From Oscillospiraceae bacterium (GTDB taxonomy: Bacteria; Bacillota; Clostridia; Oscillospirales; Oscillospiraceae), in contig JAFSNA010000142.1 in NCBI GenBank assembly GCA_017447645.1, positions 17,022-81,021 on the forward strand: a stretch of 64,000 nucleotides of DNA, read 5' to 3'. The notes beneath the pieces were generated by a model. That model was not told where the DNA came from. It made no database searches and saw only the letters and a list, made by a program, of their open reading frames with translations. The position numbers and the translations under genes were made by a program. Shown here piece by piece: positions 1,257 to 64,000 of the stretch. The number at the start of each line of letters is the position of its first letter. Position 1 is the stretch's first letter.

Positions 1257-2468
1257 CTATCCGCGGAGCGCCAGTACCGTCAGCGCGGTATAAGCGGCGA
1301 TCAGGCCGCCCAGGATCAGAAGCTGCGTCCTCCTGTGCTCGGTGAGAAGGCCGATAAACTCCCGCACCGCGGCGTTCGGCCAGAAATACCATTTGGTCGG
1401 AGCCCCCGCGCCGACCGCGGCCAGCCCCGCCTGCCGCGCCTTGATCCCGGCGCGGAACACATGATAATTCGTCGTGAAATAAGCGCATCGGGCGTCCGGA
1501 AGGAGCCTGCGCACGATCTCGGCGGAAAAGCGCATGTTTTCCTCCGTGTCCGCGGAACGGTCCTCTACGAGGATCTGATCGTCCCTTATCCCCTGCGAGA
1601 TCAGATAGTCCCGCATCGCTGCGGCTTCCGCTCTGGGCTCGTCCCTGCCTCTGCCGCCGGAAACGATGAAGCGGGGAGCCTTTCCCGTTTCCCGGATCTG
1701 TCTTTCACAGAACTGCCTGGCCAGCTCCAGCCGGCCCTTCAGCAGCGGCGTAAGCTCGCCGTTCTTCCGGATGCCGCAGCCCAGGACGATGAGGAAATCT
1801 TTGTCCGGCTCCGCCTTTCGCCGCAGCACGATCACGTTTGCCGCGATCGTGCCGATCATCATGCACTCGAAGTACAGGTACATCGCCGCAAAGACGTTGA
1901 CGACGATATTCGGCACGATGAGGAGCTTCTCCGATCCGGAGGCCCGGAAGTCGAGTATGCCGATCCCGATCTCCCCCAGAAGCAGGATGATCGCCAGCAG
2001 GATCCCCAGCAGATTGACGAAGCGCCGTCCCTCATGGCGGATGAGACTGAGATTGGACACGAACAGCGCCGCGGAAAAGACGATCAGAAGCGGCGAGGTC
2101 AGAAACATATAGTTTTTCGCGGAGTGGAGCAGCGTAAAAAGAAGCTGTCGGTTGTCAAAGCGTCCCGGCTGTGAGAAATACAGCCAGGTCGTATAGCCGT
2201 GCGTGATCGCCAGCGACAGCACGAACAGGCAAAAGCCGGAATAGAAGATCGTGTTGTAGGAATAAGGCGATTCTCGGAGCTGCCTGCGGAACTCATGCAG
2301 CAGCAGAAGGCTCATCGCGGTGAAAAACGCCGTCAGCGCGGCGTTGGCCCGGGGGAGCCAGTTCTCCGGATCGAACCTGGTCAGCAGCGCCAGGATCGCC
2401 AGCAGAACGACGCTCAGGATCGCGCCCTTGGTGTAAAAAGGCGCAGCTGTTCCCTTCTCCCGCTTCAC
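1257..2468 (-). CDS. Polytopic membrane protein with C-terminal YdcF/DUF218 domain
   Basis: The 403-residue protein starts at a GTG with AAGGGTGAG upstream. Roughly the first 210 residues contain about six hydrophobic helices. Residues from about 225 form a DUF218 (YdcF-like) domain with the family landmarks LGCGIRKNGELTPLL, FIVSGGRGRDEPRAE, EDRSADTEENMRFS and TTNYHVFRA, and a last helix closes the chain. YdcF/SanA/ElyC relatives act in envelope and peptidoglycan-precursor physiology, but their reaction is not settled. It is the last gene of the minus-strand run containing the CW_7 peptides and the Nif11-type precursor, 61 bp after the latter, so it may be cotranscribed. Whether it serves the export system or is only a neighbour is not shown. 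Family assignment is strong, role unknown. Confidence 0.85.
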   Translation of the reverse strand: MKREKGTAAPFYTKGAILSVVLLAILALLTRFDPENWLPRANAALTAFFTAMSLLLLHEFRRQLRESPYSYNTIFYSGFCLFVLSLAITHGYTTWLYFSQPGRFDNRQLLFTLLHSAKNYMFLTSPLLIVFSAALFVSNLSLIRHEGRRFVNLLGILLAIILLLGEIGIGILDFRASGSEKLLIVPNIVVNVFAAMYLYFECMMIGTIAANVIVLRRKAEPDKDFLIVLGCGIRKNGELTPLLKGRLELARQFCERQIRETGKAPRFIVSGGRGRDEPRAEAAAMRDYLISQGIRDDQILVEDRSADTEENMRFSAEIVRRLLPDARCAYFTTNYHVFRAGIKARQAGLAAVGAGAPTKWYFWPNAAVREFIGLLTEHRRTQLLILGGLIAAYTALTVLALRG

Positions 2469-2529: not shown

Positions 2530-2877
2530 TCAGAAGCTCTGTGCTTCTCCCTGCTGCGGCGCGCTTTCCGTCTCGCTGTTCAGACCCATCAGCATGCGCA
2601 GGAAGGATACGAACCAGGAATAGGGGTTGATCTCTCCCTGGCTGAGCGGTATAAAGGGGTTTGCGCCGCCCGTCACGGATTCCAGGGCGTCGTCCGGCAG
2701 GCACGTCAGCTCGTCCGAAAGGCCTGCCAACTCAAAGCCGGACGCGGCGATCGCCTTCTGTACGGCCTCTATGGCGCTCCTGGTATCGGTGCAGGCATAG
2801 AGCTTTGAGAGCAGCGATTGATCCTCCGCCGCGATCTTTGCATAGCTTTCGATGTTGATCTTGTTCAGTTTGTTCAT
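2530..2877 (-). CDS. Nif11-type leader precursor peptide with double-glycine cleavage site
   Basis: This is a 115-residue protein. Residues 1-71 form a long acidic, helical leader of the Nif11/NHLP kind ending in the site DDALESVTGG (Gly70-Gly71). The predicted mature part (72-115) begins ANPFIPLSQGEINPYSW, contains a short hydrophobic amphipathic stretch (WFVSFLRMLMGL) and an acidic Gln-rich tail. It has no Cys, so lanthionine or sactionine rings are not possible in the core; the only cysteines (29 and 59) are in the leader. It follows the ECF sigma gene by 68 bp on the same strand and is probably a third substrate of the C39 exporter encoded about 4 kb upstream in the same direction. No maturase is nearby, so an unmodified peptide is the simplest reading. 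RBS is a modest GGGAG. The leader call is good; what the core does is unknown. Confidence 0.75.
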   Translation of the reverse strand: MNKLNKINIESYAKIAAEDQSLLSKLYACTDTRSAIEAVQKAIAASGFELAGLSDELTCLPDDALESVTGGANPFIPLSQGEINPYSWFVSFLRMLMGLNSETESAPQQGEAQSF

Positions 2878-2945: not shown

Positions 2946-3419
2946 CTATGCGAGCAGCGCGCGAAGCTGCCGGAGCGCGGACTGATGGGCGCGCTTGACC
3001 ACGCTGTAGGGCAAAACCAATTTATCGGAAATCTCGTGAAGAGAATTGTCGGCAAAGTAATGCAGGACGATGATGTCCCTCTCCCGCGCCGGGATACGGC
3101 GAAGCGCGCCGGCGAGGCTCTCCAGCCTCTCGGCGCTGAGTATCTCGTTTTCCGGGCCGCCGTCCGTCCCGACGTCCTCGTCCAGAGGACAATATACACG
3201 GTGCGTCCGGTAATAGTCGACGACCGTATTGCGGGTGATCGTATAGATGTACGAAGAAACGCCGGACCTGTCGGGGGCCATATGCTCCAGCACCTTACGG
3301 AATACTTCGCTGCAAAGGTCCTCCGCGTCCTGCGTTTCCTTCACGTGGCTGCGGATATAGTCAAGAACCTTCGGGCGGTATTCGCGATAAACGGCTTCAA
3401 ATCGTTCCGCGTCCGTCAT
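2946..3419 (-). CDS. ECF-type RNA polymerase sigma factor
   Basis: This 157-residue protein has region 2 at about 1-75 (ERFEAVYREYRPKVLDYIRSH, DAEDLCSEVFRKV, YIYTITRNTVVDYYR) and region 4 at about 100-157 (IPARERDIIVLHYFADNSLHEISDKL ending SALRQLRALLA). I chose the ATG at 3419, which has AGGAG seven bases upstream; an in-frame TTG at 3446 would add nine residues without a better site. The start lies inside the 3' end of the 70-residue gene, which suggests translational coupling. No transmembrane anti-sigma factor is visible next to it, which is unusual for this class. It sits between the CW_7 peptide genes and the Nif11-type precursor, so it is likely to regulate the export system or its substrates. 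Target promoter not identified. Confidence 0.88.
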   Translation of the reverse strand: MTDAERFEAVYREYRPKVLDYIRSHVKETQDAEDLCSEVFRKVLEHMAPDRSGVSSYIYTITRNTVVDYYRTHRVYCPLDEDVGTDGGPENEILSAERLESLAGALRRIPARERDIIVLHYFADNSLHEISDKLVLPYSVVKRAHQSALRQLRALLA

Positions 3420-3609
3420 GGTCAGGCTCCTGTATGGTTTTTTCAATGATTCCCGTTCCGGCTGCCGCCATGGTCAGATCGTCGTCCGTGAGGATCTGCG
3501 GCCGGTTTTGGGCGTAGTGATCCAGCACCTCGTCGATCACGTTCTGCAGAGGAACATTTTTCTCGAAGCGCTGATAATCGAACAGTTTCTTTAACGCAGC
3601 TTCCAGCAT
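3397..3609 (-). CDS. 70-residue protein of unknown function, coupled to the sigma gene
   Basis: The frame starts at ATG 3609 with a strong GGAGGAG site. The first 35 residues are a charged helix (LEAALKKLFDYQRFEKNVPLQNVIDEVLDHY). The second half contains ILTDDDLTMAAAGTG, which resembles the acidic end of a double-glycine leader with AAAG in place of GG, followed by a 20-residue hydrophilic tail. Its 3' end overlaps the chosen sigma start by 23 bp. Possible roles are a small anti-sigma partner of the adjacent ECF factor, or a further leader-bearing substrate. There is no membrane segment, no Cys and no recognised domain, so neither role can be chosen. The RBS and tight coupling make it a real gene. 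Confidence 0.65.
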   Translation of the reverse strand: MLEAALKKLFDYQRFEKNVPLQNVIDEVLDHYAQNRPQILTDDDLTMAAAGTGIIEKTIQEPDHDGRGTI

Positions 3610-3729: not shown

Positions 3730-4071
3730 TCAGCCAAGCATCATTTTGTTGACCAGCTTCTGGATGACGTCGGGATCATAGCCGGCCTTGCGCAGCGCGG
3801 CCACGCGGTCGGCGCCGTTGCCGTACTTGCCGTTGATGACGTCACGGGCGACCTGCTCGTAGCCGGCCGTCTTCGGATCGTTGCCCGCCAGGATGGCGTT
3901 CACCATGCCCTGGATGACGTCGGGATCGATGCCCGCCTTGCGCAGCGCGGCCACACGGTCGGCACCGTTGCCGTAATCGCCGCGGATGCAGGCGTAAGCG
4001 GCCTGGATCTCCTTGGAGGTTCCGCCAGCGACGCTCGCCAGCTTCTCGTCAGTCAGTTTCTCGATGCTCAT
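3730..4071 (-). CDS. Secreted CW_7-repeat protein with double-glycine leader (paralogue 2)
   Basis: The protein has 113 residues. Residues 1-17 (MSIEKLTDEKLASVAGG) are a classic bacteriocin-type double-glycine leader. The predicted mature part (18-113) holds two CW_7 repeats at about 24-61 and 74-111, each with the family pattern I-x-G-x-(F/Y)-GNG-x-x-RV-x-ALRKAG-x-DP-x-V-(I/V)-Q-x-(L/M)-VN. CW_7 repeats are the cell-wall-binding repeats of pneumococcal phage lysin Cpl-7, which bind the GlcNAc-MurNAc-dipeptide part of peptidoglycan. The two repeats share the identical block GNGADRVAALRKAG. One Cys (28) lies in repeat 1. Compared with paralogue 1, the linker is seven residues longer. The RBS and flank (AAAGGAGAT) match those of paralogue 1. 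I infer export and leader removal by the C39 ABC exporter at 6.8-9.0 kb and binding to cell wall; whether it is toxic, protective or structural is not visible. Confidence 0.88.
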   Translation of the reverse strand: MSIEKLTDEKLASVAGGTSKEIQAAYACIRGDYGNGADRVAALRKAGIDPDVIQGMVNAILAGNDPKTAGYEQVARDVINGKYGNGADRVAALRKAGYDPDVIQKLVNKMMLG

Positions 4072-4100
4072 GGATGTATCTCCTTTTCGTTATTTCGTTT

Positions 4101-4120
4101 CCGGCGTTTTAAGACGCCGG
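4101..4120 (-). terminator. Hairpin between the two CW_7 genes
   Basis: A perfect 7-bp stem (CCGGCGT/ACGCCGG) with a 6-base loop lies after the stop of CW_7 paralogue 1. There is no T-run on the coding strand. It probably stabilises the 3' end of the first peptide message or attenuates; it is not a full terminator. Confidence 0.35.
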
Positions 4121-4146
4121 CGTTTTCCCTGACCGATCCTTTCGGA

Positions 4147-4467
4147 TCACTTCAGCAGCATGCCGTTAACGAGCTTCTGGATGACCTCGGGATCGTAGCC
4201 GGCCTTGCGCAGGGCGATCACGCGGGCCTCGCCGTTGCCGTACTTGCCGTCGATGACGTCGAGGGCGACCTTCTCGTTGCCGGCCAGGATGGAGTTCACC
4301 AGGCCCTGGACGACCTCGGGATCAAAGCCGGCCTTGCGCAAAGCGGCAACACGGGCGGCGCCGTTGCCGAAGTCGCCGCGGATGCAGGCGTAAGCGGCCT
4401 TCAGTTCGGCGGTCATGCCGCCGGCGACAGCTTCCAGTCTCTCATCGTTCAGTTTCTCAATGCTCAT
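4147..4467 (-). CDS. Secreted CW_7-repeat protein with double-glycine leader (paralogue 1)
   Basis: The protein has 106 residues. The leader is MSIEKLNDERLEAVAGG with Gly16-Gly17. The mature part has two CW_7 repeats at about 24-61 and 67-104; key positions visible are GDFGNG/GKYGNG, R-V-x-ALRKAG, (F/Y)DPEV, Q and VN. Only one Cys (28) is present and the segments read as folded domain rather than as a modifiable peptide. It is transcribed in the same direction as, and 144 bp downstream of, the second ABC exporter gene, behind AAAGGAGAT. The combination of exporter leader and muropeptide-binding domain points to a protein delivered outside the cell to bind peptidoglycan, either on the producer or on competitors. 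Leader and repeat calls are direct from sequence; the biological role is inference. Confidence 0.88.
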   Translation of the reverse strand: MSIEKLNDERLEAVAGGMTAELKAAYACIRGDFGNGAARVAALRKAGFDPEVVQGLVNSILAGNEKVALDVIDGKYGNGEARVIALRKAGYDPEVIQKLVNGMLLK

Positions 4468-4610: not shown

Positions 4611-6806
4611 TTATTTTTCCTGCGGGACGTCCAGACGCTGTCTTTCCACCAACTCGGCGAAAAAGCCGTTTCGGGCGATCAGCTCGTCATAGGTGCCGTC
4701 CTCGATGATGTGGCCCTTGTCCAGGACGAGGATCCTGTCGCAGTTCTTGATGGTGGACAGGCGGTGGGCAATGATGACGCGGGTGCATTTGAGCGCGTCC
4801 AGCGCATCGGAGACCTGCTTTTGTGTACGGTTGTCCAGCGCGGAAGTAGCCTCGTCGAAAAACAGGATCTTCGGCCTCGGCGCGACCGCGCGGGCGATCA
4901 TCAGCCGCTGCTTCTGTCCGCCCGAGATGCCGCCCTGTCCTTCGGATATGATGGTCTGCATGCCCATGGGCATGGCGCGTATATCATCGGCGATGCCCGC
5001 GATCTCGGCCGCGGCCCAGGCGTCGTCCAGCGAAAGCTGCGGATCGGAGATCACGATGTTGGAGTAAATATCGCCCGAGAAAAGGCTTCCGTTCTGCATC
5101 ACCACCCCCATGCGTCGGCGCAGGGAGCGCAGGTCGATCTTGGAGATGTCCTTTCCGTCGACGTAGATCGCGCCCTTCTCCGGTGTCTCAAAGCCGAGCA
5201 GCAGGCGAAGCAGCGTGCTCTTGCCGCAGCCGGTGGTGCCCACGATCGCGACATACTCGCCCGCCTTGATCTTCAAGCTCATCCCGTCCACCACATAGGG
5301 CATGCTGTCCTTGTAGCGGAAATAGACGTTGCTCAGCTCGATGCTGCCCTTCAGTGAGCTCAGCATCTCCTTGCTTTCGGAGGACTCCGGCTCGGCCTGC
5401 AGGATCGGCTCCGACATTTCCATGATGGGCTTGATCTGAGCGATCGACTTCGCCATGCCCGCGAGGGCGGCGAATGCGCCCGCCACCATGCCGTAGGCAA
5501 CGTTGAAGGTGATGTACTCCGAGGGGCTGACGCGCGTCTTGACCGCGAGGTAATACAGCAGGATCGTCCCCAGCAGGGAGACGGCCGTGGAAATGGCCGC
5601 GCTCGCCTTGAGGAACGTCGGCGGGTTGTAGCTGAGCTTCGCGATCTCCGAAAGGAGCTTTGCCCAGCGGGCGAAGGCGCGCTTTTCCGCGCCGGCCAGC
5701 TTGATTTTCTGCACGCCGGTGATCAGCGCGTAGCTCATGCCGTTTTCTTTGGCGCTGAGCTCCATGGACTGCTTGCTGATGCGCATCTGCGCGACAGTGG
5801 TCAGCAAGGAAAAGCCGAGCCCGACGAGGATGATCGCCAGGGCGGGCACGACCAGCGCGGGGGCGTACCGGAAGATCTGCGGGATGTACAGCAGGGACGA
5901 AAGCGAGGTCAGCCCGAGGGAAAACACGATGCCGACCAGCAGATCGCACAGCTGACTGACGGCTCCGAAGCGGGTGGACAGCTCGCCTGAGGAATAGTCG
6001 CGGAAGAAGCTCGCCGGCAGGTTCATGATGCGCATCATCATGGCGGCCTCGACCGACAGCGAGGTTTTGATCCCGATGCGTCCCATCATCAGCGAACGCA
6101 CCGTTTCGACCATCTGCGACGAGATGATCGCGCAGAGCATGAACACCGCCGTTCCGATCAGGAACGGGACGCTGCCGCTCTCCAGCACGCTGCCGGTGAG
6201 CAGGCGGGTGATGCGGATCATCGGCATGCCGAAGAGCGTCACGAGAAGCGTGAGCGCGATGATCAGCACGTAGTCTCCCGTGCTCAGGCAGTTTTTCAGG
6301 TAGGCCGCCAGATCCGGGATGCCGAGCTTTTTCAGCGGCAGCGGACGGTAAAAGCAGATCGCGTCCTCGGAGAACTGCTCCGCGTTCCGACGGTCTACCG
6401 TGGTCTTTTCTCCGCTGTCCGGGTCCTTGAACCAATAGCCGGTGAAGGACTTGGGAATGAGCGCGACCGGCGTGCCGTCGGAAGAACGGAAGGCCAGCAT
6501 CGGCCCGAAGGCGTCTTTATACCAGCCCTTTTCCAGCCTGACGTTGCGCCGCATCAGGCCGCGCGGGCGCAGGCAGTATTCCAGCTGTTCATCCGCGTCG
6601 GTGATGTTTTCGGGGATCTCGGGGCACTTGTAATGATAATATTTCAGGACGTCCTCGATCGCGGCCCTGGTCACGATTCGCTCGTCGTTGAGCGCGCCGG
6701 TGCCGCTTTTGCCCAGGACGGAGGCGGCTATGCAGAAGATGGAGTCTTCAAAAAGCTCCTGATCGCTCAGTTTTCTCTGGCGGATCTGTTCGTCGAACCA
6801 GCCCAT
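4611..6806 (-). CDS. NHLM-type bacteriocin exporter, ABC subunit without peptidase
   Basis: This 731-residue protein has an N-terminal region of about 150 residues that is not a C39 peptidase. A six-helix ABC exporter membrane domain follows at about 160-460, and an ATPase domain at about 485-720. Walker A is GTTGCGKST, the signature is ISGGQKQR and Walker B is ILFFDEATSALD, with an H-loop at IIAHRLST. This is the second exporter subunit usually paired with a peptidase-bearing subunit in NHLM/NHLP clusters. The gene starts 14 bp after the peptidase subunit stop, behind GAGGAGGG, so the two proteins are likely made together and may form a heterodimer. The N-terminal region may recruit leader peptides, but that is inference. 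No defects seen. Confidence 0.93.
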   Translation of the reverse strand: MGWFDEQIRQRKLSDQELFEDSIFCIAASVLGKSGTGALNDERIVTRAAIEDVLKYYHYKCPEIPENITDADEQLEYCLRPRGLMRRNVRLEKGWYKDAFGPMLAFRSSDGTPVALIPKSFTGYWFKDPDSGEKTTVDRRNAEQFSEDAICFYRPLPLKKLGIPDLAAYLKNCLSTGDYVLIIALTLLVTLFGMPMIRITRLLTGSVLESGSVPFLIGTAVFMLCAIISSQMVETVRSLMMGRIGIKTSLSVEAAMMMRIMNLPASFFRDYSSGELSTRFGAVSQLCDLLVGIVFSLGLTSLSSLLYIPQIFRYAPALVVPALAIILVGLGFSLLTTVAQMRISKQSMELSAKENGMSYALITGVQKIKLAGAEKRAFARWAKLLSEIAKLSYNPPTFLKASAAISTAVSLLGTILLYYLAVKTRVSPSEYITFNVAYGMVAGAFAALAGMAKSIAQIKPIMEMSEPILQAEPESSESKEMLSSLKGSIELSNVYFRYKDSMPYVVDGMSLKIKAGEYVAIVGTTGCGKSTLLRLLLGFETPEKGAIYVDGKDISKIDLRSLRRRMGVVMQNGSLFSGDIYSNIVISDPQLSLDDAWAAAEIAGIADDIRAMPMGMQTIISEGQGGISGGQKQRLMIARAVAPRPKILFFDEATSALDNRTQKQVSDALDALKCTRVIIAHRLSTIKNCDRILVLDKGHIIEDGTYDELIARNGFFAELVERQRLDVPQEK

Positions 6807-6820
6807 GCTCCACCCTCCTC

Positions 6821-9001
6821 TCAGTCGCTGGAGATGAGCTCGGTGTAGACGCCGCCCTTGGCGTAGAGCTCATCATGCGTTCCGCGCTCGATCACGACGC
6901 CCTTGTCCAGGACGACGATCTCGTCGCAGTCTCGAATGGTGGAAAGCCTGTGTGCGATCACGATGCAGGTGATGCCCCGATCCTTGACCGCCTTGACCAG
7001 TTCATATTCCGTCTTGGCGTCGAGCGCGGAGGTCGCCTCGTCCATGATGATGACGGAGGGATCCTGCGCCAGGACGCGGGCGATCTCGATGCGCTGGCGC
7101 TGGCCGCCGGAAAGGTCCTTGCCGCCCTCCGTCAGCCTGCCGTAGAAGCCGCCGTCCCTGTCCATGATGTCGTCATAGATCTGGGCGTCCCGCGCGGCGA
7201 GGATCATTTCAAAATCCTCGATGGAATTGTCCCACATCTTGATGTTGTTGGCGATCGTGTCCTCGAAGAGCACGATGTCCTGATCCACCACGGCCACCGA
7301 GCCGGTGAACACGCTGCGGTCGATCTCCCGGATGGGCTTCCCGTCGAAAAGGATCTCGCCGCTCCAGGGCTGATAGAGCCCGGAGATCAGTTTGGAGAGC
7401 GTGGATTTCCCGCAGCCGGAGCTGCCCACGAAGGCGACGCGATCGCCGGGCTTCACGCTCATGCAGAAGTCCCGGATCAGGGGCTCGCCGAGACGGGAAT
7501 AGCCGAAGGTCACGTTCCTGAGCTCGATCCGTCCGGAGAGCTTGGAATAGTCCGCGTCCTTTGAAAGAGGCTCGTCGGAATAAGCCGCGTCCAGCGGGTA
7601 TTCCATCACGTCCTCGACGCGCTCCATCTCGGTGCGCATCTCCTGGATCATCTGTCCGGCGGAGATCAGCGTCATGGCCGGGGACATGAAAGAGTTCAAA
7701 AAGCCCTGGAAGAGCATGATCTGGCCCAGTGTAAAGGATCCCTGCATCGTCAGCCAGACGCCCAGGACCATGACGGCGGCGTCGGCCAGCGTGGCCAGCA
7801 GCGAGGGGATCGCGCCGAGATACTGATTGAGCTTGGCGTATTTGACGCCCTGGTTGTTCACGGAAGCCTGGTATCCGGCCCATTTCTGGAAATACCCGTT
7901 TTCCGCGCCGCTGGATTTGATGGTCTCCACCATCTGAATGCCGGAGATCGTGGCCGCGGACAGCTTGCCGCTGTCGCGCATCTGAACGCGCGTGATATTG
8001 ACGCGCTTGGCGGAGATCAGCCGGGACACCAGAAGATTCAAAATGATCGTCACGATGCCCACGATGGTCAGCATCACGCTGAAGCGCAGCATGATGACCA
8101 GGTAAAACACCATCATGATCGTATTGAGCAGCAGCGGGGCGAAGGTGTTCACCAGCGCGGAGGCGATGGACGCGTTGGTCCCCTGCCGCTGCAGGATGTC
8201 GCCCGCCATGCGCTGGGAGAAAAACTCCATGGGCATGCGCAGGATCTTCCACATGAAGCTGCTGCTGCCGACGAGGGCCATTTTGCCGTTGATCTTCAGC
8301 GCGTAGACCGCCTGGATCCAGGTGATGATCACCTGCGCGGCGCCGAGCAGCGCCATCAGGCCCAGGAAGGGCATCAGGAGCTCCCGGTTCTCGCCGGTGA
8401 GCAAACGGTCCATAAAGAATCTGGAGAACACCGGGTTGATGATGCCGAAGAGATAAGCGATCACGGTCGAGAGCATCACGAAGGCAACCGCCGCGCCCGC
8501 GCCGACGAGGCGCTTACGCGCGAAGGCAAGCGTGCTCTTGCGTTTGCCGCCGGGCCGGAAATCCGGGCCGGGAACGATCCGGAGGCAGACTCCCGTGAAG
8601 GAGCGGCTGAACTCCTCCATCGAAACGCGCACCTCTCCGCGGGCGGGATCGTTCAGATACGCGTACTTGCCCCGAAAGCCGTCCAGCACGACAAAGTGGT
8701 TGAAGTTCCAGTGTATGATGCAGGGATAGCACATATCGCTCTTGAGCGCGTCCACCTCGCAGCGGAAGCCCTCCGCCTCGAGGCCGTAATTGCGCGCGGC
8801 CATCAGCACGTTTTTGGCGTTGGAGCCGTCGCGGGAAACGCCGCAGTCTACGCGGACCTGCTCAAGCGGCACCCATTTCCCGTAGTAAGCCATCACCATG
8901 GCCAGGCAGGCCGCGCCGCACTCGAGCGCTTCCATCTGCATGACCACCGGGACCTTGGCCTTTCCTCCGGTCACGGGCTGTTTCGTCCGTCCTTTATCCA
9001 T
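6821..9001 (-). CDS. NHLM-type C39 peptidase/ABC exporter
   Basis: This 726-residue protein is a peptidase-containing ABC exporter. The C39 domain occupies about 14-145, with catalytic Cys28 in EALECGAACLAMV, His102 in HWNFNHFVVLDG and Asp118 in YLNDPARG. The exporter helices span about 160-460. The ATPase at about 490-720 has Walker A GSSGCGKSTL, signature LSGGQRQR and Walker B VIIMDEATSALD. C39 exporters cut after the double glycine of leaders and send the product across the membrane. The matching leaders are encoded downstream in the same operon (two CW_7 proteins and the Nif11-type precursor). It begins 11 bp after the HlyD-like gene. All catalytic residues are intact, so I expect an active system. 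Confidence 0.95.
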   Translation of the reverse strand: MDKGRTKQPVTGGKAKVPVVMQMEALECGAACLAMVMAYYGKWVPLEQVRVDCGVSRDGSNAKNVLMAARNYGLEAEGFRCEVDALKSDMCYPCIIHWNFNHFVVLDGFRGKYAYLNDPARGEVRVSMEEFSRSFTGVCLRIVPGPDFRPGGKRKSTLAFARKRLVGAGAAVAFVMLSTVIAYLFGIINPVFSRFFMDRLLTGENRELLMPFLGLMALLGAAQVIITWIQAVYALKINGKMALVGSSSFMWKILRMPMEFFSQRMAGDILQRQGTNASIASALVNTFAPLLLNTIMMVFYLVIMLRFSVMLTIVGIVTIILNLLVSRLISAKRVNITRVQMRDSGKLSAATISGIQMVETIKSSGAENGYFQKWAGYQASVNNQGVKYAKLNQYLGAIPSLLATLADAAVMVLGVWLTMQGSFTLGQIMLFQGFLNSFMSPAMTLISAGQMIQEMRTEMERVEDVMEYPLDAAYSDEPLSKDADYSKLSGRIELRNVTFGYSRLGEPLIRDFCMSVKPGDRVAFVGSSGCGKSTLSKLISGLYQPWSGEILFDGKPIREIDRSVFTGSVAVVDQDIVLFEDTIANNIKMWDNSIEDFEMILAARDAQIYDDIMDRDGGFYGRLTEGGKDLSGGQRQRIEIARVLAQDPSVIIMDEATSALDAKTEYELVKAVKDRGITCIVIAHRLSTIRDCDEIVVLDKGVVIERGTHDELYAKGGVYTELISSD

Positions 9002-9012
9002 TCGCAGCGTCC

Positions 9013-9432
9013 TCAGTTGAACAGAAGCTGGAGCACCTGTGTGCTCCGATAGACGACGCGGGCGGCATAGCTCCCGTCCGCAAGCTCCGTCTGCGCGACG
9101 GCAAAGATGCTTCCGTCCTCCGCCGTTCCGACGCTGCCGATCACGGCCGCGCTGTCACCGATCTCGATCTCCATGCCGGCCTCGACCTTCTCGGCCTGCC
9201 GGGCGTCGTCGAAGGACACCACCATCATGCCGTTTTCCACCTGCGCCGTGCCGGAGGCGACGCTTTCGATCCGGGCGGAAGCGCCCCAGATCAGCATGCC
9301 CGTCAAAAGGAGGATCACCGCAGCCAGGACGACCCAGATCGCGGGATTCGTCACACGCATATAGTCGTTGAGCTGCTCCGGCGACTGGACGTGCTCCATG
9401 CTTTCCTTGCGGAACAGAGTCGATTGATCCAT
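9013..9432 (-). CDS. Short HlyD-like secretion protein (NHLM family)
   Basis: The 139-residue protein has a cytoplasmic start, one membrane helix at about 30-50 and a short extracytoplasmic part. The latter has HlyD-like features: GASARIESVASGTAQVENGMMVV just after the helix, and biotinyl-lipoyl-like segments ending in VVYRSTQVLQLLF. Usual HlyD-type adaptors are over 250 residues because of a long coiled-coil hairpin; that part is absent here, as expected for a single-membrane cell needing no outer-membrane reach. The reading frame is intact, the RBS is AAAAGGAGA, and the ABC exporter follows after 11 bp. It is first in the operon, behind a sigma-A-type promoter. It probably stabilises or gates the exporter. 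Confidence 0.85.
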   Translation of the reverse strand: MDQSTLFRKESMEHVQSPEQLNDYMRVTNPAIWVVLAAVILLLTGMLIWGASARIESVASGTAQVENGMMVVSFDDARQAEKVEAGMEIEIGDSAAVIGSVGTAEDGSIFAVAQTELADGSYAARVVYRSTQVLQLLFN

Positions 9433-9673: not shown

Positions 9674-9706
9674 AACGGTCTGAAAGCGCAAGGCCTTCAG
9701 ACCGTT
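9674..9706 (-). terminator. Intrinsic terminator of the cystatin-like lipoprotein gene
   Basis: A perfect 11-bp stem (AACGGTCTGAA/TTCAGACCGTT) with an 11-base loop is followed on the minus strand by a T-rich tract (TTCTTTTCTTTTT). It lies 31 bp after the stop at 9737 and separates this gene from the export operon. Confidence 0.85.
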
Positions 9707-9736: not shown

Positions 9737-10357
9737 TTATTCGCCGGCAGGCTGGGACAGCTCCGCGAGATCCAGCGGAACCGTCTTCACGATCTCGGTC
9801 TTGCCCTGCGTATCCGCGGAGACAAAGCACAGATTCCAGCCCTTGCAGAGCACGATGTGGTTGGTGCCCGCAGCGACCTGGGACGCCAGATGCATCACGC
9901 CGTCCGGTACCTCGAGGTACGACTCGCGGTCGAGCGTCCATCCGCCCAGCAGCGCGCCGCCGCTCGGCTGAGAATCCTCGATCCTGCCGCTCTCCTCGAT
10001 CTTGGCCAGATCCATCGCAGCAATGTTGCGGATCTCGGCCTTGCCCTGCGTGTCCTGATAGACCGTCACCACGGCGTAATAAGGCTGGGCGTCGGGGTAG
10101 ACGACCGCGGCCTCGCAGAGGAGGCAGAAATTGGTGCCGGAAACGATCTGCGTGCCCAGCAGGGCGACGGGCGTGTAGTTCACACCGACGAAGCCCTCCA
10201 TCGCCTTGTCAAAGGCGGCCTGTGCCTCGGGCGTGAGCGCGCCGTCCTCCGTCAGCGTCCAGCCGCCGACCGTCTTGGGCTCGGTCTTCTGCTGTCCGCA
10301 GGCTGCGAGCGCAAAAACCATCAGCAGCGCCAGAATAAGTGCCGTGATCTTCTTCAT
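9737..10357 (-). CDS. Lipoprotein with two cystatin-like QxVxG motifs
   Basis: The 206-residue protein has a lipoprotein signal peptide with hydrophobic core and lipobox (LAAC, Cys20). The mature part has two homologous units. Unit 1 starts VGGWTL (30-35) and carries QIVSGTNFCLL (70-80). Unit 2 starts GGWTL (138-142) and carries QVAAGTNHIVL (160-170). A conserved Gly near the N-terminus plus the QxVxG-TN loop are the protease-binding landmarks of cystatins, and both units end in DTQGK(A/T)EI. Cystatins block papain-like cysteine proteases; secreted bacterial members exist but are rarely characterised. I chose ATG 10357 because it has AAGGAGG and starts the signal peptide; upstream ATG 10438 would bury it. 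The gene is monocistronic, with its own promoter and terminator. Fold assignment is by motif only, so inhibition is inference. Confidence 0.78.
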   Translation of the reverse strand: MKKITALILALLMVFALAACGQQKTEPKTVGGWTLTEDGALTPEAQAAFDKAMEGFVGVNYTPVALLGTQIVSGTNFCLLCEAAVVYPDAQPYYAVVTVYQDTQGKAEIRNIAAMDLAKIEESGRIEDSQPSGGALLGGWTLDRESYLEVPDGVMHLASQVAAGTNHIVLCKGWNLCFVSADTQGKTEIVKTVPLDLAELSQPAGE

Positions 10358-10546
10358 GTCGTTTTCCTCCTTTTTCAGCCGCATCTTCGATCGTCCGTCA
10401 TCCGATGCTCCGATTATCCGTAAGGCCTGCCGCTTCACAGATCGCCATGATCCTCCGCTTTACACGGAGAAGCTCTGTCAGGCCCCGCTTCGCACACTTG
10501 TCCGGATCCGGCGGAAGCTTTTTCCTTTTCTTCCGGATCCCGGCGT

Positions 10547-10625: not shown

Positions 10626-12386
10626 TCACGCGGCTTTGTCCAGCGAATCGCTGTTGATCGGAAAGGTGAAGTAAGTGTCGGGATAGGGCTCGTTCTCCAG
10701 CGTGAAATGCCACCACTCCTCAGCGAGCGGACGGAAGCCGTGCTTCACCATGACTTCCCGCAGCAGCATGCGCATGTCGTACTGCTCCTGCGTGATGGCC
10801 GTGTAATCGGGATGGCTGAGCTCGCCGAAATAATCGAAGGTGCCGCCCATGTCTGCCTCGCGCTCCGTTCTCATGTCAAAGAGCGTCAGATCCACGGTGC
10901 TGCCGCGGCTGTGGCCGGAATGCTCGGCGATATAGCCCTGCGGGAAGAGGACGTCCTTGTCGAGCTCGGGATAGAAGTAGTCCTTCATGCGCGTGTCGTC
11001 GACGTCCAGCGCCCAATTCATGAAATGCGTCACGGCCATCTGGGGACGGTAGGCGTCGAAGATCTTCAGCCGATAGCCCATATCCATGAGCTCGTCGCTT
11101 GCCTCCCTGAGCGCGGCCGCCGCTTCCTTCGTCAGCATGGCCAACGGCTCCTCATAGCCGTCGATCCGATCGCCCACGAAATTGTAGGTCGAGTAGTAGC
11201 GGATCTCCAGAATGACGTCCGGCACCGCCTCGCTCAACAGCACGAAGTCTGAGGAGTCGTCCGAGAGCTTCACGTCCGAGGGCTGCGCCTGCCGCCCGGC
11301 CAGCCAGGCTGCCGTGCGCAGCGCCACGTTCTCGCGCAGGTTTTCAAAGAAGAACAAATAGTCGTACAGGTGGTACGAGCCCTTCGGGAAGATGTCCAGT
11401 CCCGGAGGATACTCCTCCGGCGTGACGTCGGTCACGACCAGCTCTCCCCGCTCGCCGATGTATGCGCCGCAAAGCGCGGCGAGCGGCTCGGCTCCGGTCT
11501 GCATGACGGCGCCGCGGTTGAGGGCGCGGTCCGCCGGCGTGCTGTCGGTCTTCCAGTTCAGCGGGTTGATGGACAGGGCCTTCACGCCCGCGGGGATGAT
11601 GATCGTCTCCGTCACGCTCCCGTCCTCGCAGTCGAAGCAGACGACGGTGCCGAGATCGTCCTCGCCCGCGGCCGGCACGATCTGCGGATATTTTTCCGTC
11701 ATTTCCTCCGTGACCGCCCATCCGATGGAATAGACCGAGATCAGCCTGTCGCGCAGGGCCCTCGCCTCCTCGCCGTCGCCGCCGTAGTATTCCTTCAGCA
11801 GCTCCAGGCACATTTCGCCGCCCTGGGAGAAGCCGGCCAGGATGATGCCGCGGCCGTCGTTCTCGTTGTCCAGATACCAGCGGAAGGCTGCGGAAACGTC
11901 CTTATAGGCGATCTGTCTGGCCAGCTCCCGCTCCGTTTCGGGCAGCAGATAGGCCTTGATGGACATCTGCCGGTAGAAGGGAGAAAACAGCCGTCCCGTC
12001 TCCTCATATATGCCCTTTTCCATGTCCAGGGCGTTGACGAAGATGCCCTTCAGCTTGTCGTTGAGCTCGAAGGAATTCGTCTCGCTCCGGGTGTCCACGG
12101 TGGGGCAGATCAGAAAGACGTCCACATCCCGATCCTCGCCCAGCTCAAAAAATGCCCAGTTCTCCGCCAGGCCGTAGTCCAGGGCGTCGGCGGCAGGCGC
12201 GGCCGTATCCGCGGGCTCCGGCGCTTCCGTCAAAGCCGCGTTCGGCGCCGGCCTTGTCTCTCCCGTCTGCGGGGCAGGCGCAGCTGCGTTCTCCCGGTTC
12301 AGAACGGCGTAGAGCATCCCCGCCAGCAGCAGGAGCGCGATCAGGCCGATCAGCGCGATATGTTTTTTGCTGTTCTTCATTTTCAT
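10626..12386 (-). CDS. Exported DUF3089 hydrolase-like / VanX-type D-Ala-D-Ala dipeptidase fusion
   Basis: The 586-residue protein starts with an uncleaved-looking signal anchor (8-28) and a Pro/Ala-rich linker. Residues about 70-360 match the DUF3089 alpha/beta-hydrolase family, with nucleophile elbow GFSQGGE. Residues about 375-575 match VanX/DdpX (peptidase M15D), with zinc and catalytic landmarks HSGHSRGSTVDLTL and EEWWHF, plus RYYSTYNFVG and FDAYRP. VanX enzymes cut D-Ala-D-Ala and are usually cytoplasmic or periplasmic single-domain proteins of about 200 residues, so an outward-facing fusion is unusual. A free VanX-like paralogue lies two genes upstream. No VanH/VanA ligase genes are present, so a role in wall-peptide scavenging or remodelling fits better than glycopeptide resistance. 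It is the last gene of the run. Confidence 0.85.
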   Translation of the reverse strand: MKMKNSKKHIALIGLIALLLLAGMLYAVLNRENAAAPAPQTGETRPAPNAALTEAPEPADTAAPAADALDYGLAENWAFFELGEDRDVDVFLICPTVDTRSETNSFELNDKLKGIFVNALDMEKGIYEETGRLFSPFYRQMSIKAYLLPETERELARQIAYKDVSAAFRWYLDNENDGRGIILAGFSQGGEMCLELLKEYYGGDGEEARALRDRLISVYSIGWAVTEEMTEKYPQIVPAAGEDDLGTVVCFDCEDGSVTETIIIPAGVKALSINPLNWKTDSTPADRALNRGAVMQTGAEPLAALCGAYIGERGELVVTDVTPEEYPPGLDIFPKGSYHLYDYLFFFENLRENVALRTAAWLAGRQAQPSDVKLSDDSSDFVLLSEAVPDVILEIRYYSTYNFVGDRIDGYEEPLAMLTKEAAAALREASDELMDMGYRLKIFDAYRPQMAVTHFMNWALDVDDTRMKDYFYPELDKDVLFPQGYIAEHSGHSRGSTVDLTLFDMRTEREADMGGTFDYFGELSHPDYTAITQEQYDMRMLLREVMVKHGFRPLAEEWWHFTLENEPYPDTYFTFPINSDSLDKAA

Positions 12387-13820: not shown

Positions 13821-14483
13821 TTACTTTCTTTTCAGATATTCCGTCGAAACCGGAAAGGCAAAATAGGTGTCCGGATACGGCTCATTTTCCAGCGAGAAAT
13901 GCCACCACTCGCAGTCGATGGGCCGAAAGCCGCCGCGGAGCATCGCGCGCCGGAGGATCATGCGGTTTTCATACTGCTCGGGAGTGATCGAGCGGCAGTC
14001 GGGATGTGAGATCGGGCCGAACAGGTCGAAGGGGCTGCCCATATCCAGCTCCTTGCCCGTCTTCATGTCCAGCAGCGTCAGATCGACCGCGCTGCCGCGG
14101 CTGTGGCTGGACTGCTTGGCGATATAGCCTTTGGAGAAAAGCTCCTGCTTCTCCAGCTCCGGATAAAAATAGGGCTTCATGCGGATATCCTGATCCTCGA
14201 TGCCCCAGAGCACAAAGTGCTTCACCGCGACGGCGGGCCGGTAGGCGTCGAACACCTTCAGACGATAGCCCCGGACGATCAGCTCGCTGCTGACCGCCTT
14301 GAGCGCACGGGCCGCCTCGATCGTCAGCAGGGCGCAGGGCTCCTCATAGCCGTCGATCCTCTCGCCGATGAAATTGTAGGTGGAATAATAACGGATCTCC
14401 TGCACGATATGGGGCACGAAGTCCGCCAGCAATACAAAGCCCGAGGGATCCTGCGCCGGGTCGTTTCGATAGTCCGCTCTCAT
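13821..14483 (-). CDS. VanX/DdpX-type D-Ala-D-Ala dipeptidase
   Basis: The protein has 220 residues from the ATG at 14483, which has GGGAG nine bases upstream; a frame-extending ATG at 14555 would overlap the hydrolase gene. There is no signal peptide, so it should be cytoplasmic. M15D landmarks are RYYSTYNFIGERIDGY, FDAYRPAVAV, SSHSRGSAVDLTLLD (zinc His and Asp) and CEWWHFSLENEPYPDTYF (catalytic Glu region and zinc His). The enzyme hydrolyses D-Ala-D-Ala. It is closely related to the C-terminal half of the exported fusion at 10.6-12.4 kb, pointing to gene duplication with retargeting. It follows the alpha/beta hydrolase by 20 bp. Confidence 0.88.
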   Translation of the reverse strand: MRADYRNDPAQDPSGFVLLADFVPHIVQEIRYYSTYNFIGERIDGYEEPCALLTIEAARALKAVSSELIVRGYRLKVFDAYRPAVAVKHFVLWGIEDQDIRMKPYFYPELEKQELFSKGYIAKQSSHSRGSAVDLTLLDMKTGKELDMGSPFDLFGPISHPDCRSITPEQYENRMILRRAMLRGGFRPIDCEWWHFSLENEPYPDTYFAFPVSTEYLKRK

Positions 14484-14502
14484 CTTTCTTTTCTCCCGTT
14501 TT

Positions 14503-15306
14503 CTACGACTCGAAAAAACGCAGGATCCGCTGCCGGTAATCCGGGGCGGTATCAAAGGCCGCGTGTCCGTAGCCCGTATACAAATAGAGCCTGAAATCCG
14601 GCCGACAGTCCAGCCGCTCGGCGATCTCCATCGTGGCGTCCGAATCCAGGACGCTGTCCTCGTACACGCCGACGGCCAAAACCGGGCATCGGATCCTGTC
14701 CAGCTCCTCCACGATGTTGAAGCCTTTCGTGCCCTCCGCGCAGAGGATGAAGCGTTTCAGGTCCTCCTCGGTCACGTCTGCCGCCGCGGCGATCAGCGTT
14801 TCCTTATACTGTTCAAAGACCTCCGGCGGATAGATCTCTCTTCCGAAGGAGAGGTACAGGCCTTCTCTGTCCCCCGCTTTTGCCAGACGGACCCACTCTT
14901 CGAGCACCCGGTACTGCTCCTCGCGCACATGGGCCGAGCTCGATCCCAGCACCATTTTGCCCACGAGCTCCGGATACTCGACAGCCATCACCAGCGCGAT
15001 CATGCCGCCCTGCGAGGCTCCGAAGAGGCAGACCTCCTTGAGGCCGAGCGCGCGGAAAGCTTCCGCCGTGTCCCGCGCCATATCCCGGATGGTATAGGGC
15101 GAGGGCATGTCCCTGCGTCTGTCAAAGACGTAAATCGTATAGCGCTCCTCCAGGGAGCGGTAGGCCTCGGCCACGGCGTCCGCCGCGCCCATGACGCTTT
15201 GAACGCTCAGTCCCGGCAGGATCACAAGCGTTTTCCCGCCGCTGCCGAAGCGGAAATAATCCATGGAAAAAGAATCCGTCTTTACACTCTCAATTCGGAT
15301 ACTCAC
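14503..15306 (-). CDS. Alpha/beta-fold hydrolase
   Basis: This protein of about 267 residues belongs to the alpha/beta hydrolase superfamily. The oxyanion/N-terminal strand is KTLVILPGLS, the nucleophile elbow is GASQGG, the late acid is near VYEDSVLDSDA and the catalytic His is in YTGYGHAAFD. The GTG at 15306 has AAGGGG eight bases upstream and is preferred; an ATG at 15342 overlaps the MATE stop (ATGATG) and could also be used by coupling. The substrate cannot be predicted. It lies between the MATE-ATPase fusion and the VanX-like gene in one transcription unit. Confidence 0.82.
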   Translation of the reverse strand: MSIRIESVKTDSFSMDYFRFGSGGKTLVILPGLSVQSVMGAADAVAEAYRSLEERYTIYVFDRRRDMPSPYTIRDMARDTAEAFRALGLKEVCLFGASQGGMIALVMAVEYPELVGKMVLGSSSAHVREEQYRVLEEWVRLAKAGDREGLYLSFGREIYPPEVFEQYKETLIAAAADVTEEDLKRFILCAEGTKGFNIVEELDRIRCPVLAVGVYEDSVLDSDATMEIAERLDCRPDFRLYLYTGYGHAAFDTAPDYRQRILRFFES

Positions 15307-61219: not shown

Positions 61220-64000
61220 TCAGGCTTTATCGGCTTCCTTCGCGTCCTCGGGCTTCTTGTTGCGGGTGAGATAAGCCAAGATGCCGTTCACCAGCAGGAT
61301 GCAGAGCATCGGGATGGTCCACTTGTCGACCATCACCATCGGGTCGTTCATGTTCTCCGTCAGAATGAAGAGCACAACCGATGCCACAGCCGGGATCACG
61401 CCGAAGAACTTGCTCTTCTTACCCTTCTGCTCGTCGTCACCGCTCTCCGCGCTCCTTACGGTCTGCTCACCATCGTCCTTCTCCTTCTTCTTGAAGAAAG
61501 TGACAATCATGCCGATTGCGGTCAGCACCGTGACGATCGCGGCGAGCAGGTTGATCAGAGCCCAGGCCGACATGTTCGCCAAAGGCGTGTCGGGCTCAAG
61601 GATCTTTTCAGGCTCGGGAGTGGGTTCGGGAGTGGGTTCGGGAGTGGGTTCGGGAGTCGGCTCAACGACCTGGTTCGGCTCCCACTGCGCGGTGTAGACG
61701 TTGTTGCCCGTCACCGTCGCGGACACCGCGGGCGACCAGCCGGTGAAGGTGTAGCCTTCACGCGTCGGCGTGCCCTTGAATGCAGGCGTAGCTGCACCGA
61801 TACGCAACGTGTTCGTTACCTGATTCTGGAACACCACCTCGTCGGCCACACCGTCGGTGTAGGTGACCGAATACCACACCATCTGGATCGTCCAGGAGCC
61901 GTGGATGGTCTTGTTGGCCGTCACGTCCGCAATATCACCGCTGTTCCAACCGCTGAAGCGGAGGACCGAGATCGGATTGCCGTTATCCGCGAATGCATAC
62001 GGAATATCCGCGTACTGCTTCGTGCTCACCTTGAAGCTGCCGTGTCTGTTTACCTTGACAGCCGCGGGAGCTGCGGGAGCACCTGCAGGAGCGGTGCCGC
62101 CGGGCCAATCAAAGACATAGTTGATGGTGTACTGAACCGTCTTGATCGTCAGCGTGCCGTTCTTATACGTGATCTTGTAGCCGCCGGTGACTTCCACGCC
62201 GGCCGCGTTCTTGATCACAGCGTCCTTCGCCACGTTGGGAACGCTGCCGACATCGGTGATCGTGCCGGTGACCGTGATGGAATCAATGGAGTCTCCGCTC
62301 AGCAGCTCGCCGCTCGTAAGCGTGTAGCCGTCGTTCGTCAGCGGAGTGCCGTCATAGGTCTTCTGGTCAGAAGCCGCCGTGATCTCGATGGGGATCGGCT
62401 CGGTCTGCACCGTCGCGGTGGCACTCTGCTCCTTTCCGGTTCCTTCTGCGAATCTGGCGTTGATAATGACTCTGTTCACGATCTCCGTATTCACCACGTC
62501 GCCCGCAGTCACGGTGTCCGCGTAAACGAGAGTCCACGACTCGCCGGGCTGCAGCCGGTCGTCATAGGTTCCGGCAAACTGCAGGGTGCTGTCCGGGTCA
62601 ATATGGTTCAGAATTGCCTCATCAACATGGAAGCCCGGGCCGGTTGTATACTCGGGAGTTGCGGAGTTGCTGATGATCGTGGGAACGATGCGGTCGGGTC
62701 TGAGATGTCCGTAGGTGTCGTCCCCCAAGTCGAACTCAGTGAGCGAAATGTTGCCGGTGTTCGTCACCGTAATGGTGAACTGCACGGTGTCGCCCATCCT
62801 GCAGAGCGTTTTATCCGCGGTCTTCGTCACTTCGAAGTCCGGATTCGCGTTCACAGCCACCGACGCAGACGCAGAAACCTCGGCAGGATTATCTCCGCGC
62901 ACGGCCGTCGCGTTCGCCTTGACGGTGTTCTTGATACCGTCCGCGGTGTTGATGCTGCCCGCATCCATGTCGTCCTGCGTCACCGTATAGGTGTAAGTGA
63001 AGGTCGCTTCTTCGTTCGGAGCCAGAGCAAAGGTTTCTCCGCTCAGATCCGCATGATCGTCCTCCAGCTTGCCGTCCTTCACGCTCACGTTGCCCGTGTT
63101 CTTCACGACCACCGTGTACGTGATCACTTCGCCGGCATTGTCGACGGAGCTCTTGTCCGCATCCTTCGTGATGCTCAGCGCAGCTGCCGCGTCGGCCGCG
63201 GTCACGGTCGCACTGTTCTCGACCTCGTCAGGATCGTCGCCGCGTACAGCGGTCGCATTCGCCTTGACGGTGTTCATGATCTCGCCCGCGTCGAAGTCAT
63301 CCTGCGTTACGGTGTAGGTGTAGGTGAAGGTCGCATCCTCGTTCGGAGCCAGAGCAAAGGTTTCTCCGCTCAGATCCGCATGGTCGTCCTCCAGCTTGCC
63401 GTCCTTCACGCTCACGTTGCCCGTGTTCTTCACGACCACCGTGTAGGTAACCGTGTCGCCGACAGCAACGCCGCTCGTCGGGCTCGCGCTCTTCACGATG
63501 CCCAGCTCAGCTGCAGCGGCCACTGTCGTGACCTCGGCGTCGTCAGACGCGGTCACTTTCGCATCCTTCGGATCCTTGCCCGTCGCAGTCGCCGTGTTCT
63601 CGATCTTGCCCGCATCCACGTCCGCCTGAGTGACCGTGTAGGTGTAGGTAATCGTCTTTACTCCCGAAGGAGCCAGCGTGAACGCCGCCTCGCTCAGAGT
63701 CACCAGGGTGTCTTCCAGAGCGATATCTTTGACCGTCACGTTGCCGCTGTTCGTCACAACTACCGTGTACGTAACCGTGTCGCCGACTGCAACGCCGCTC
63801 GTCGGATTGGCGGTCTTCTCAACCGTCAGCTTCGGATCCGCAGCCACTGTCGTGACCTCGGCGTCGTCAGATGCGGTCACTTCCGCATCCTTCGGATCTT
63901 TGCCTGTCGCAGTCGCCGTGTTCTCGATCTTGCCCGCATCCACGTCCGCCTGAACGACCGTGTAGGTGTAGGTGATCGTCTTTACTCCCGAAGGAGCCAG
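61220..64000 (-). CDS. Large DUF11-repeat surface protein, N-terminus beyond window
   Basis: The last 926 residues are in the window and the frame is still open at 64000. Order from the edge: one partial and three full DUF11 repeats of about 108 residues (pattern SGVAVGDTVTYTVVV-x-N-(S/T)-GNV-(T/S)-VKD), then a divergent fourth. An MBG/YDG-type domain follows (DQKTYDGTPLTNDGYTLTSG), then an InlB/Listeria-Bacteroides-type repeat region (REGYTFTGWSPA), a PTPE linker, and a helix with KKKEKDD. A charged stretch and two further helices end in NKKPEDAKEADKA. There is no LPXTG sortase signal; anchoring is by membrane helices. Likely adhesin or stalk. Terminators follow within 250 bp. Confidence 0.88.
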   Translation of the reverse strand: MAPSGVKTITYTYTVVQADVDAGKIENTATATGKDPKDAEVTASDDAEVTTVAADPKLTVEKTANPTSGVAVGDTVTYTVVVTNSGNVTVKDIALEDTLVTLSEAAFTLAPSGVKTITYTYTVTQADVDAGKIENTATATGKDPKDAKVTASDDAEVTTVAAAAELGIVKSASPTSGVAVGDTVTYTVVVKNTGNVSVKDGKLEDDHADLSGETFALAPNEDATFTYTYTVTQDDFDAGEIMNTVKANATAVRGDDPDEVENSATVTAADAAAALSITKDADKSSVDNAGEVITYTVVVKNTGNVSVKDGKLEDDHADLSGETFALAPNEEATFTYTYTVTQDDMDAGSINTADGIKNTVKANATAVRGDNPAEVSASASVAVNANPDFEVTKTADKTLCRMGDTVQFTITVTNTGNISLTEFDLGDDTYGHLRPDRIVPTIISNSATPEYTTGPGFHVDEAILNHIDPDSTLQFAGTYDDRLQPGESWTLVYADTVTAGDVVNTEIVNRVIINARFAEGTGKEQSATATVQTEPIPIEITAASDQKTYDGTPLTNDGYTLTSGELLSGDSIDSITVTGTITDVGSVPNVAKDAVIKNAAGVEVTGGYKITYKNGTLTIKTVQYTINYVFDWPGGTAPAGAPAAPAAVKVNRHGSFKVSTKQYADIPYAFADNGNPISVLRFSGWNSGDIADVTANKTIHGSWTIQMVWYSVTYTDGVADEVVFQNQVTNTLRIGAATPAFKGTPTREGYTFTGWSPAVSATVTGNNVYTAQWEPNQVVEPTPEPTPEPTPEPTPEPEKILEPDTPLANMSAWALINLLAAIVTVLTAIGMIVTFFKKKEKDDGEQTVRSAESGDDEQKGKKSKFFGVIPAVASVVLFILTENMNDPMVMVDKWTIPMLCILLVNGILAYLTRNKKPEDAKEADKA
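61611..61663. repeat. 12-bp tandem repeat encoding the PTPE linker
   Basis: Four copies of a 12-bp unit (GGTTCGGGAGTG on the plus strand) encode TPEP repeats between the InlB-like region and the membrane anchor. Copy number may vary between strains. Confidence 0.85.
63000..64000. repeat. DNA-level repeats of DUF11 units, period 324-327 bp
   Basis: Near-identical stretches recur, for example CACTGTCGTGACCTCGGCGT at 63521 and 63845 (324 bp) and TTCGGAGCCAGAGCAAAGG at 63015 and 63342 (327 bp). The period equals one DUF11 domain, implying recent duplication or gene conversion. Confidence 0.88.

Follow-up and report, generated by a model that had tools for sequence, protein, structure and literature searches.

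Some uncultured gut bacteria appear to send out bare wall-binding modules through a bacteriocin-type exporter

Peptidase-containing exporters are mostly seen as outlets for bacteriocins, pheromones and modified peptides. The closest described relatives of the locus presented here are the NHLM/NHLP export systems, whose known cargo consists of an NHLP or Nif11 leader followed by a modified core, hypervariable in the NHLP precursors (PMC2887384, in part). Our locus shares with these systems an orthologous ABC pair above the family cut-offs and a GG-type leader. Its cargo, however, seems to be a small, folded, enzyme-free domain that binds peptidoglycan, its leaders stay below the cut-off of the leader models, and its adaptor is shortened. 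The PCAT1-CtA pair of Clostridium thermocellum and LahT also have a C39-ABC exporter and a leader with Leu at -12 and -7, a hydrophobic residue at -4 and GG, as at our locus. The CtA cargo is flexible inside the transporter, and a wall-binding domain is not mentioned in the sections of PMC6959990 considered here.

The CW_7 domain, with the same main contact residues, is known as the tail of the phage muramidase Cpl-7 (PMC5705596 and PMC3466307, both in part). In another lysin a wall-binding domain of a different type anchors the enzyme to wall remnants and so limits the lysis of neighbours (PMC9045149, in part). At our locus, in contrast to Cpl-7, the CW_7 domain comes without a catalytic part and has its own leader and exporter. 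YneA-like proteins are small and contain one LysM domain, as does a second cargo family described below (17.7 bits with NF010723, cut-off 60), but they use another export route and are not known to have a GG leader. MAM of Faecalibacterium prausnitzii, which we liken to our cargo by description only, is a protein rather than a short peptide. It has GG at positions 20-21 and, in some strains, a PCAT gene nearby, and the sections of PMC8836110 considered here do not describe it as a peptidoglycan-binding domain.

The exporter type, the leader type and the domains are known already, whereas their combination appears to be new. Among the matches listed for the open-access literature other than bioRxiv, none combined a C39 exporter, a GG leader and bare CW_7 or LysM domains, in agreement with the original prediction, whose author knew of no described system of this type. 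If the reading given below is true, "bacteriocin transporter" annotations conceal a whole class of proteins of the envelope, and the natural ways to tune or block wall hydrolases would include bare binding modules.

The gene run and its exporter

The window, i.e. the whole stretch of 64,000 nucleotides that was analysed, contains a run of genes pointing in a single direction, from position 9432 to position 1257. The features are, in the order of transcription:

9674..9706, minus strand: terminator-like hairpin with a 14-pair stem, upstream of the adaptor
9013..9432, minus strand: shortened HlyD-type adaptor, 139 aa (partial TIGR03794 match)
6821..9001, minus strand: ABC1, C39 peptidase with permease and ATPase (NHLM_micro_ABC1; TIGR03796, Pfam and PDB sequence matches)
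4611..6806, minus strand: ABC2, partner ABC transporter without a Pfam C39 domain (NHLM_micro_ABC2; TIGR03797)
4147..4467, minus strand: CW7-A, 17-aa GG leader and two CW_7 repeats (open reading frame, Pfam)
3730..4071, minus strand: CW7-B, 17-aa GG leader and two CW_7 repeats with a longer linker (open reading frame, Pfam)
3397..3609, minus strand: leader-like small ORF of 70 aa, ending in LTDDDLTMAAAG plus 19 aa; overlaps the sigma factor gene
2946..3446, minus strand: ECF sigma factor (TIGR02937, 89.9 bits, cut-off 42.9)
2530..2877, minus strand: third GG-leader gene, a 71-aa leader ending in LPDDALESVTGG and a 44-aa acidic tail with PYSWFV
1257..2468, minus strand: DUF218 membrane protein, the final gene of the run

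The two CW_7 genes are adjacent, and each encodes a 17-residue GG leader and two CW_7 repeats, just as had been predicted from the letters. CW7-A (4467-4147) has 106 residues and starts with MSIEKLNDERLEAVAGG, CW7-B (4071-3730) has 113 and starts with MSIEKLTDEKLASVAGG. The mature chains would have 89 aa (9.4 kDa, net charge +2, pI 8.8) and 96 aa (10.1 kDa, net charge +2) respectively, each with one Cys. The string aaaaggaga lies 7 bases upstream of the ATG in both genes. The hairpin (9706-9674) is a possible upstream border of the operon; as evidence it is weak, since a hairpin scan of the region gave 11 such sites where 8.5 are expected by chance, its stem being the longest.

Both ABC proteins are above the cut-offs of their NHLM families: ABC1 scores 928.6 bits with TIGR03796 (cut-off 853.3) and ABC2 716.4 bits with TIGR03797 (cut-off 709.4). 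Against PDB sequences ABC1 gave 335 bits with PCAT1 (4ry2) and 242 bits with the C39 domain of 6mpz. Its Q, C, H and D, which are likely to be catalytic, were read by eye from the C39 motif. The adaptor reaches 27.8 bits with TIGR03794 (cut-off 156.2), over positions 2-49 only; in the loci of relatives it occupies stop-to-stop frames of 112-300 aa, most of them 140-170 aa, and is split in two at one locus. The predicted C39 exporter pair with adaptor is thus found in the run, but Pfam finds the C39 domain only in the first ABC protein and the adaptor is a 139-aa short form.

The leader-like ORF reads AAAG where the six genus relatives found (L060, L063, L064, L068, L092 and L110) read AAGG, with only a short tail after it. 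The third GG-leader gene has relatives in L134, L137, L138, L153, L154 and L187, and such SWF-type peptides adjoin DUF218 in the relatives; the members of this family that were scanned had no Pfam or NCBIfam match over the cut-off. DUF218 relatives are present in 15 loci, the window counted.

Leaders and distribution of the CW_7 proteins

The consensus of PCAT leaders is L(-12)xxxE(-8)L(-7)xxxxGG, in which position -4 is important for specificity (PMC6959990, in part). Both window leaders have the Leu residues at -12 and -7, a hydrophobic residue at -4 and the GG, while Arg and Lys replace the consensus Glu at -8. With the NCBIfam leader models, CW7-A scored 18.3 bits (TIGR03798, cut-off 32.3) and the third GG-leader peptide had no match. 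The same kind of leader is found throughout the genus set, where all 69 readable short CW_7 ORFs, two of them the window's, carry it. The residue at -12 is hydrophobic in 67/68, -7 is Leu in 67/69 and -4 is Val or Ile in 68/69 of these leaders; Glu at -8 is seen in only 22/69, and Asp or Glu at -10 in 69/69.

A strict leader pattern was found in 153 ORFs from 99 sources (1.57 Mb, window included), as against 0, 0 and 0 in three 3-mer shuffles, which rules out chance or spurious ORFs. The 153 comprise 68 CW_7, 59 LysM and 26 other ORFs; the share of CW_7 is biased, since most of the loci (L047-L116) were chosen for CW_7. None of the leader ORFs has a tail longer than 180 aa, so that no exported hydrolase of the GG-leader type was seen.

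Among 149 genomes searched (the window genome included), CW_7 was matched in 53, of which 50 belong to the genus (91 genus genomes in the set). The short form occurs in 48 of the 91, and two more (G020 and G072) have long frames only. In loci L047-L119, together with the initial 16 kb of the window, there are 78 CW_7 ORFs. Six of these are lysin-like (L108, L112, L113 and L117-L119, with L112 and L113 on one contig), three lack the N-terminus because they are cut at a contig end (L094, L095, L105), and 69 bear the leader. The window genome (87% complete) has four CW_7 matches, all of them in CW7-A and CW7-B. Beyond this set, 11 of 13 loci of a named contig collection have the leader, L016 and L017 being without it. 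In 300 genomes of the family CW_7 was matched in 11, five of the window's own genus (window included) and six of other genera. Five of these six were examined: two, of genus g388 (L186, L187), have the leader and three (L188-L190) do not, L190 being a short CW_7 ORF (123-aa frame) without it; the sixth (G683, 419-aa frame) is outside the leader count. Seven of 398 phylum genomes matched CW_7, one of them the window genome, and in the other six no leader is seen.

None of 15 viral CW_7 loci has a GG leader. Of the 95 phage records that matched, the 15 listed are annotated as lytic enzymes; three plasmid records contain CW_7, two under amidases and one unannotated. A lysin fragment or prophage remnant is ruled out by the recurrence of the leader-CW_7 form, both in 48/91 genomes of the genus and in another genus of the family. 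The string YGNG in the window proteins resembles the YGNGV motif of class IIa bacteriocins (PMC3546714, in part), which is a coincidence since it lies inside the CW_7 domain.

Genomes with the short CW_7 form tend to have the exporter as well. When the 91 genus genomes were scored by hand for the presence of the two, 46 had both, 2 only CW_7, 11 only the exporter and 32 neither (Fisher p = 6e-13, a value that overstates the association since the genomes are related). The two CW_7-only genomes, G009 and G079, are 65% and 80% complete. Outside the single-repeat type, an exporter gene was found in 33 of 56 loci (window included); the nearest one is on the strand of the CW_7 gene in all 33, and the gap between the two frames is at most 300 bases in 11 loci. 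The other 23 have no exporter gene in the fetched stretch, and several of the contigs end early.

A single-repeat subfamily (L048, L052, L056-L058, L061, L062, L079, L089, L091, L093 and L099) stands apart, with a conserved C-terminal DPYLG or DPYK and no exporter nearby in 12/12 loci. A gene with a weak, below-cut-off phosphoribosyltransferase match is common to ten of these loci, and nine share one that we take to be DHH-like.

CW_7 repeats, ligand site and selection

Pfam CW_7 (PF08230) matches CW7-A with 94.3 bits and CW7-B with 104.1 bits (cut-off 25), so the original domain assignment stands. It is the sole Pfam family over the cut-off in either protein, i.e. no catalytic domain of the endolysin or autolysin type was detected. 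The string GNGxxRVxALRKAGxDPxVxQxxVN, which had been noticed beforehand in the letters, is exact in all four window repeats. Among solved Cpl-7 chains, CW7-B gave 96 bits with 5i8l and 30.5 bits with 4cvd.

According to docking and NMR, the contacts of Cpl-7 repeat 2 include Val260, Ile261, Gly266, Asn267, Arg271, Gln286, Val289 and Leu293 (PMC5705596, in part). We mapped these positions onto the window repeats, where they are retained with two exceptions: the place of Val260 (R-11) is taken by Cys in the first repeat of either protein, and that of Leu293 (R+22) by Met in the last repeat. The Arg and the Gln are present in 4/4. The same two residues are near-invariant in 130 CW_7 repeats of the genus (Arg 123/126, Gln 126/127) and in control repeats from the lysin side (Arg 34/34, Gln 33/34). 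The mean entropy of seven contact columns, that of Leu293 left out, was 0.54, versus 1.66 in 33 other columns (p = 0.009). As the Arg of the Cpl-7 repeat is dispensable for the helix bundle (PMC5705596, in part), its conservation points to binding. With their contact residues nearly invariant, the CW_7 modules look able to bind muropeptide.

The CW_7 genes are under purifying selection. Among 69 pairs of relatives more than 75% identical, which are not independent since sequences recur between pairs, 64 had dS of 0.1-1.5, with a median dN/dS of 0.19 and a maximum of 0.42. Outside this range one pair had dS 0.039 and a ratio of 0.72, and four had dS above 1.5 and ratios near 0.1. The low ratios fit a maintained function, as opposed to the hypervariable cores of NHLP peptides.

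Other cargo and the possible role of the modules

Clustering of the neighbouring genes revealed a second cargo family, 53 ORFs in 30 loci, with a GG leader and one LysM-like domain; one of them (L094:3408) has an irregular N-terminus. Four were scanned and matched Pfam LysM at 42.6-66.7 bits (cut-off 20.9), and the leaders follow the same pattern as the CW_7 leaders. With a strong match to the alignment of the LysM cargo defined as E up to 1e-12, a limit set by hand after viewing the list, LysM cargo and exporter were both present in 52 of the 91 genus genomes, LysM only in 1, the exporter only in 5 and neither in 33. No GG-LysM match was found in the window genome, whose LysM matches fall in 3 long frames. 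The sister-genus locus L187, whose contig ends in ABC1, has in succession ABC1, ABC2, CW_7, leader-like ORF, sigma, third peptide, DUF218 and GG-LysM. This is the arrangement of the window with one CW_7 gene instead of two, and LysM added.

Of 34 exporter loci taken independently of CW_7, 31 entered the pattern scan (L125, L150 and L160 were left out). Their 22 leader ORFs comprise 11 LysM, 6 SWF-type, 4 of a 125-aa type and 1 other; that CW_7 is absent from these ORFs follows from the way the loci were chosen, and one CW_7 gene is cut at a contig end in L158. The 125-aa family (GG leader followed by some 125 aa that by eye look beta-rich) occurs in L054:14041-14505, L069, L081, L087, L129, L151:11900-12418, L159:1944-2912 and L186. 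Three members scanned with Pfam had no match over the cut-off, and two scanned with PHROGs had none. The SWF peptides and this family are cargo without a known wall link. Because such other cargo, together with LysM, lies beside the same kind of exporter in relatives, and a third GG peptide lies in the window run itself, to call the exporter dedicated to CW_7 proteins, as was first done, is too strong.

Two observations on these loci may be added. Beside more distant NHLM exporters there are arrays of many GG-leader genes, several of which have CxxC...H tails that look zinc-finger-like by eye (L156:1102-4668, L131, L133). In 18 loci of relatives, L116:723-2891 among them, the CW_7 and LysM genes have a large lipoprotein-like protein nearby, with frames of 549-939 aa; the one scanned had no family match over the cut-off.

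LysM has a fold unrelated to that of CW_7 and likewise binds peptidoglycan, and its GG-leader form at the same exporter loci is new here. From the presence of a second fold for ligands of this kind, wall binding would seem to be one main purpose of the exporter system. In the window, the leader would dock on the C39 domain of ABC1 through L-12, L-7 and V-4, given its fit to the PCAT consensus; C39 would then cut after GG, and ABC1/ABC2 would pass the chain out. We hold docking, cleavage and export, predicted from sequence, to be highly probable. Outside, the mature chain would fold into two CW_7 three-helix bundles, as its similarity to Cpl-7 suggests; this folding and the step between it and retention on the wall are, jointly, probable. 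Finally, the module may stay on the wall, most likely the producer's own, where it would occupy sites and limit hydrolases needing the same ones. This last step is the least certain, and we put it somewhat short of even. Taken as a whole, the core of the reading, namely that CW7-A and CW7-B are precursors of bare peptidoglycan-binding modules, seems rather likely to us. It is likewise likely that, in line with the original view, the cargo is a folded domain that binds the wall rather than a modified peptide, given that the CW_7 contacts are mostly kept, the leaders fit PCAT, the strand agrees with the exporter in 33/33 and there are GG-LysM kin. The first three alternatives below share everything up to wall retention and differ only in the last step, and the likelihoods given are not shares of a single whole.

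The modules could be antibacterial, either bacteriocin-like themselves or targeting subunits for the peptide 2877-2530, binding the peptidoglycan of neighbours and blocking synthesis or concentrating the peptide. The exporter family TIGR03796/97 is named for bacteriocins, the run itself contains that GG peptide, which has the size of a bacteriocin, and mature LysM cargo is cationic (median charge +3, n = 53), but the mature CW_7 proteins carry little net charge (median +1, range -3 to +5, n = 64). Purifying selection also speaks against it, hypervariable cores being typical of NHLP precursors (PMC2887384, in part), as does a ligand that producer and target share. Among the top 45 conserved neighbour clusters we recognised no immunity-type family, although the lipoprotein (18 loci) or DUF218 could be one. 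We regard an antibacterial role as unlikely, and the original suggestion of a wall-targeted toxin found little support.

Unlikely to the same degree is self-regulation, in which the modules would tune growth, separation or turnover by competing for wall sites with autolysins or division proteins of the producer itself. The ECF sigma gene in the run and the purifying selection agree with it, as does the small LysM protein YneA, which we take to be a division suppressor. The window genome, however, has CW_7 only in the two cargo genes, so that no CW_7 hydrolase of its own is seen for them to compete with, and its LysM matches are confined to the long frames noted above.

Still less probable is a decoy, in which exported lysin-type modules occupy wall sites and shield siblings from the lysins of lysing neighbours. 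The best PHROGs matches of the CW_7 cargo, and several of the LysM cargo, are indeed endolysins, as are by annotation (lytic enzymes) the 15 phage records listed. On the other hand, lysins as a rule act from inside, and the PADLOC phage-defence models match none of five proteins. The scarcity of lysin-like CW_7 ORFs in the genus set (2/91 genomes, many of them incomplete, and metagenome bins often miss phages) weakens the decoy somewhat further.

A RiPP precursor, with the CW_7 part only a scaffold or the product modified, is very improbable, for although the exporter family is tied to RiPP clusters (PMC2887384, in part), whole CW_7 domains are under purifying selection, 42 of 64 complete CW_7 cargo proteins have no Cys, and no modification enzyme was found among ten window proteins scanned with Pfam and NCBIfam. 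We give just as little credit to an unused leader, i.e. proteins that stay inside and an accidental exporter link: the single-repeat loci without a nearby exporter would agree with it, but every leader has its final GG, the rest of the consensus is present in nearly all of them, the strand always agrees with that of the exporter, and the ligand muropeptide is outside.

Returning to exported modules that bind the wall, a wider generalisation may be offered tentatively, as possible though on the doubtful side. Across this gut-bacterial family the C39 exporter might have as its main product a set of bare modules, unrelated in fold, that bind peptidoglycan (CW_7, LysM and perhaps the 125-aa family) and that would act by occupying sites, not by catalysis or membrane damage, as a shield against hydrolases or a brake on them.

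Some further genes of the window may be noted. Upstream of the operon, at 10626-12386 and 13821-14555 (minus strand), Pfam (M15) identifies two D-Ala-D-Ala dipeptidase domains, and DUF3089 is fused to the first of them; this cluster recurs in 9 loci, the window counted. A lipoprotein at 9737-10438 (minus strand) has two repeats, each with a QxVxG-like string that we thought reminiscent of cystatins, an idea that Pfam and PDB sequence searches did not support. At 61220-63943 (minus strand) there is a large repetitive ORF resembling a surface protein, the repeats of which are presumably of the DUF11 type.
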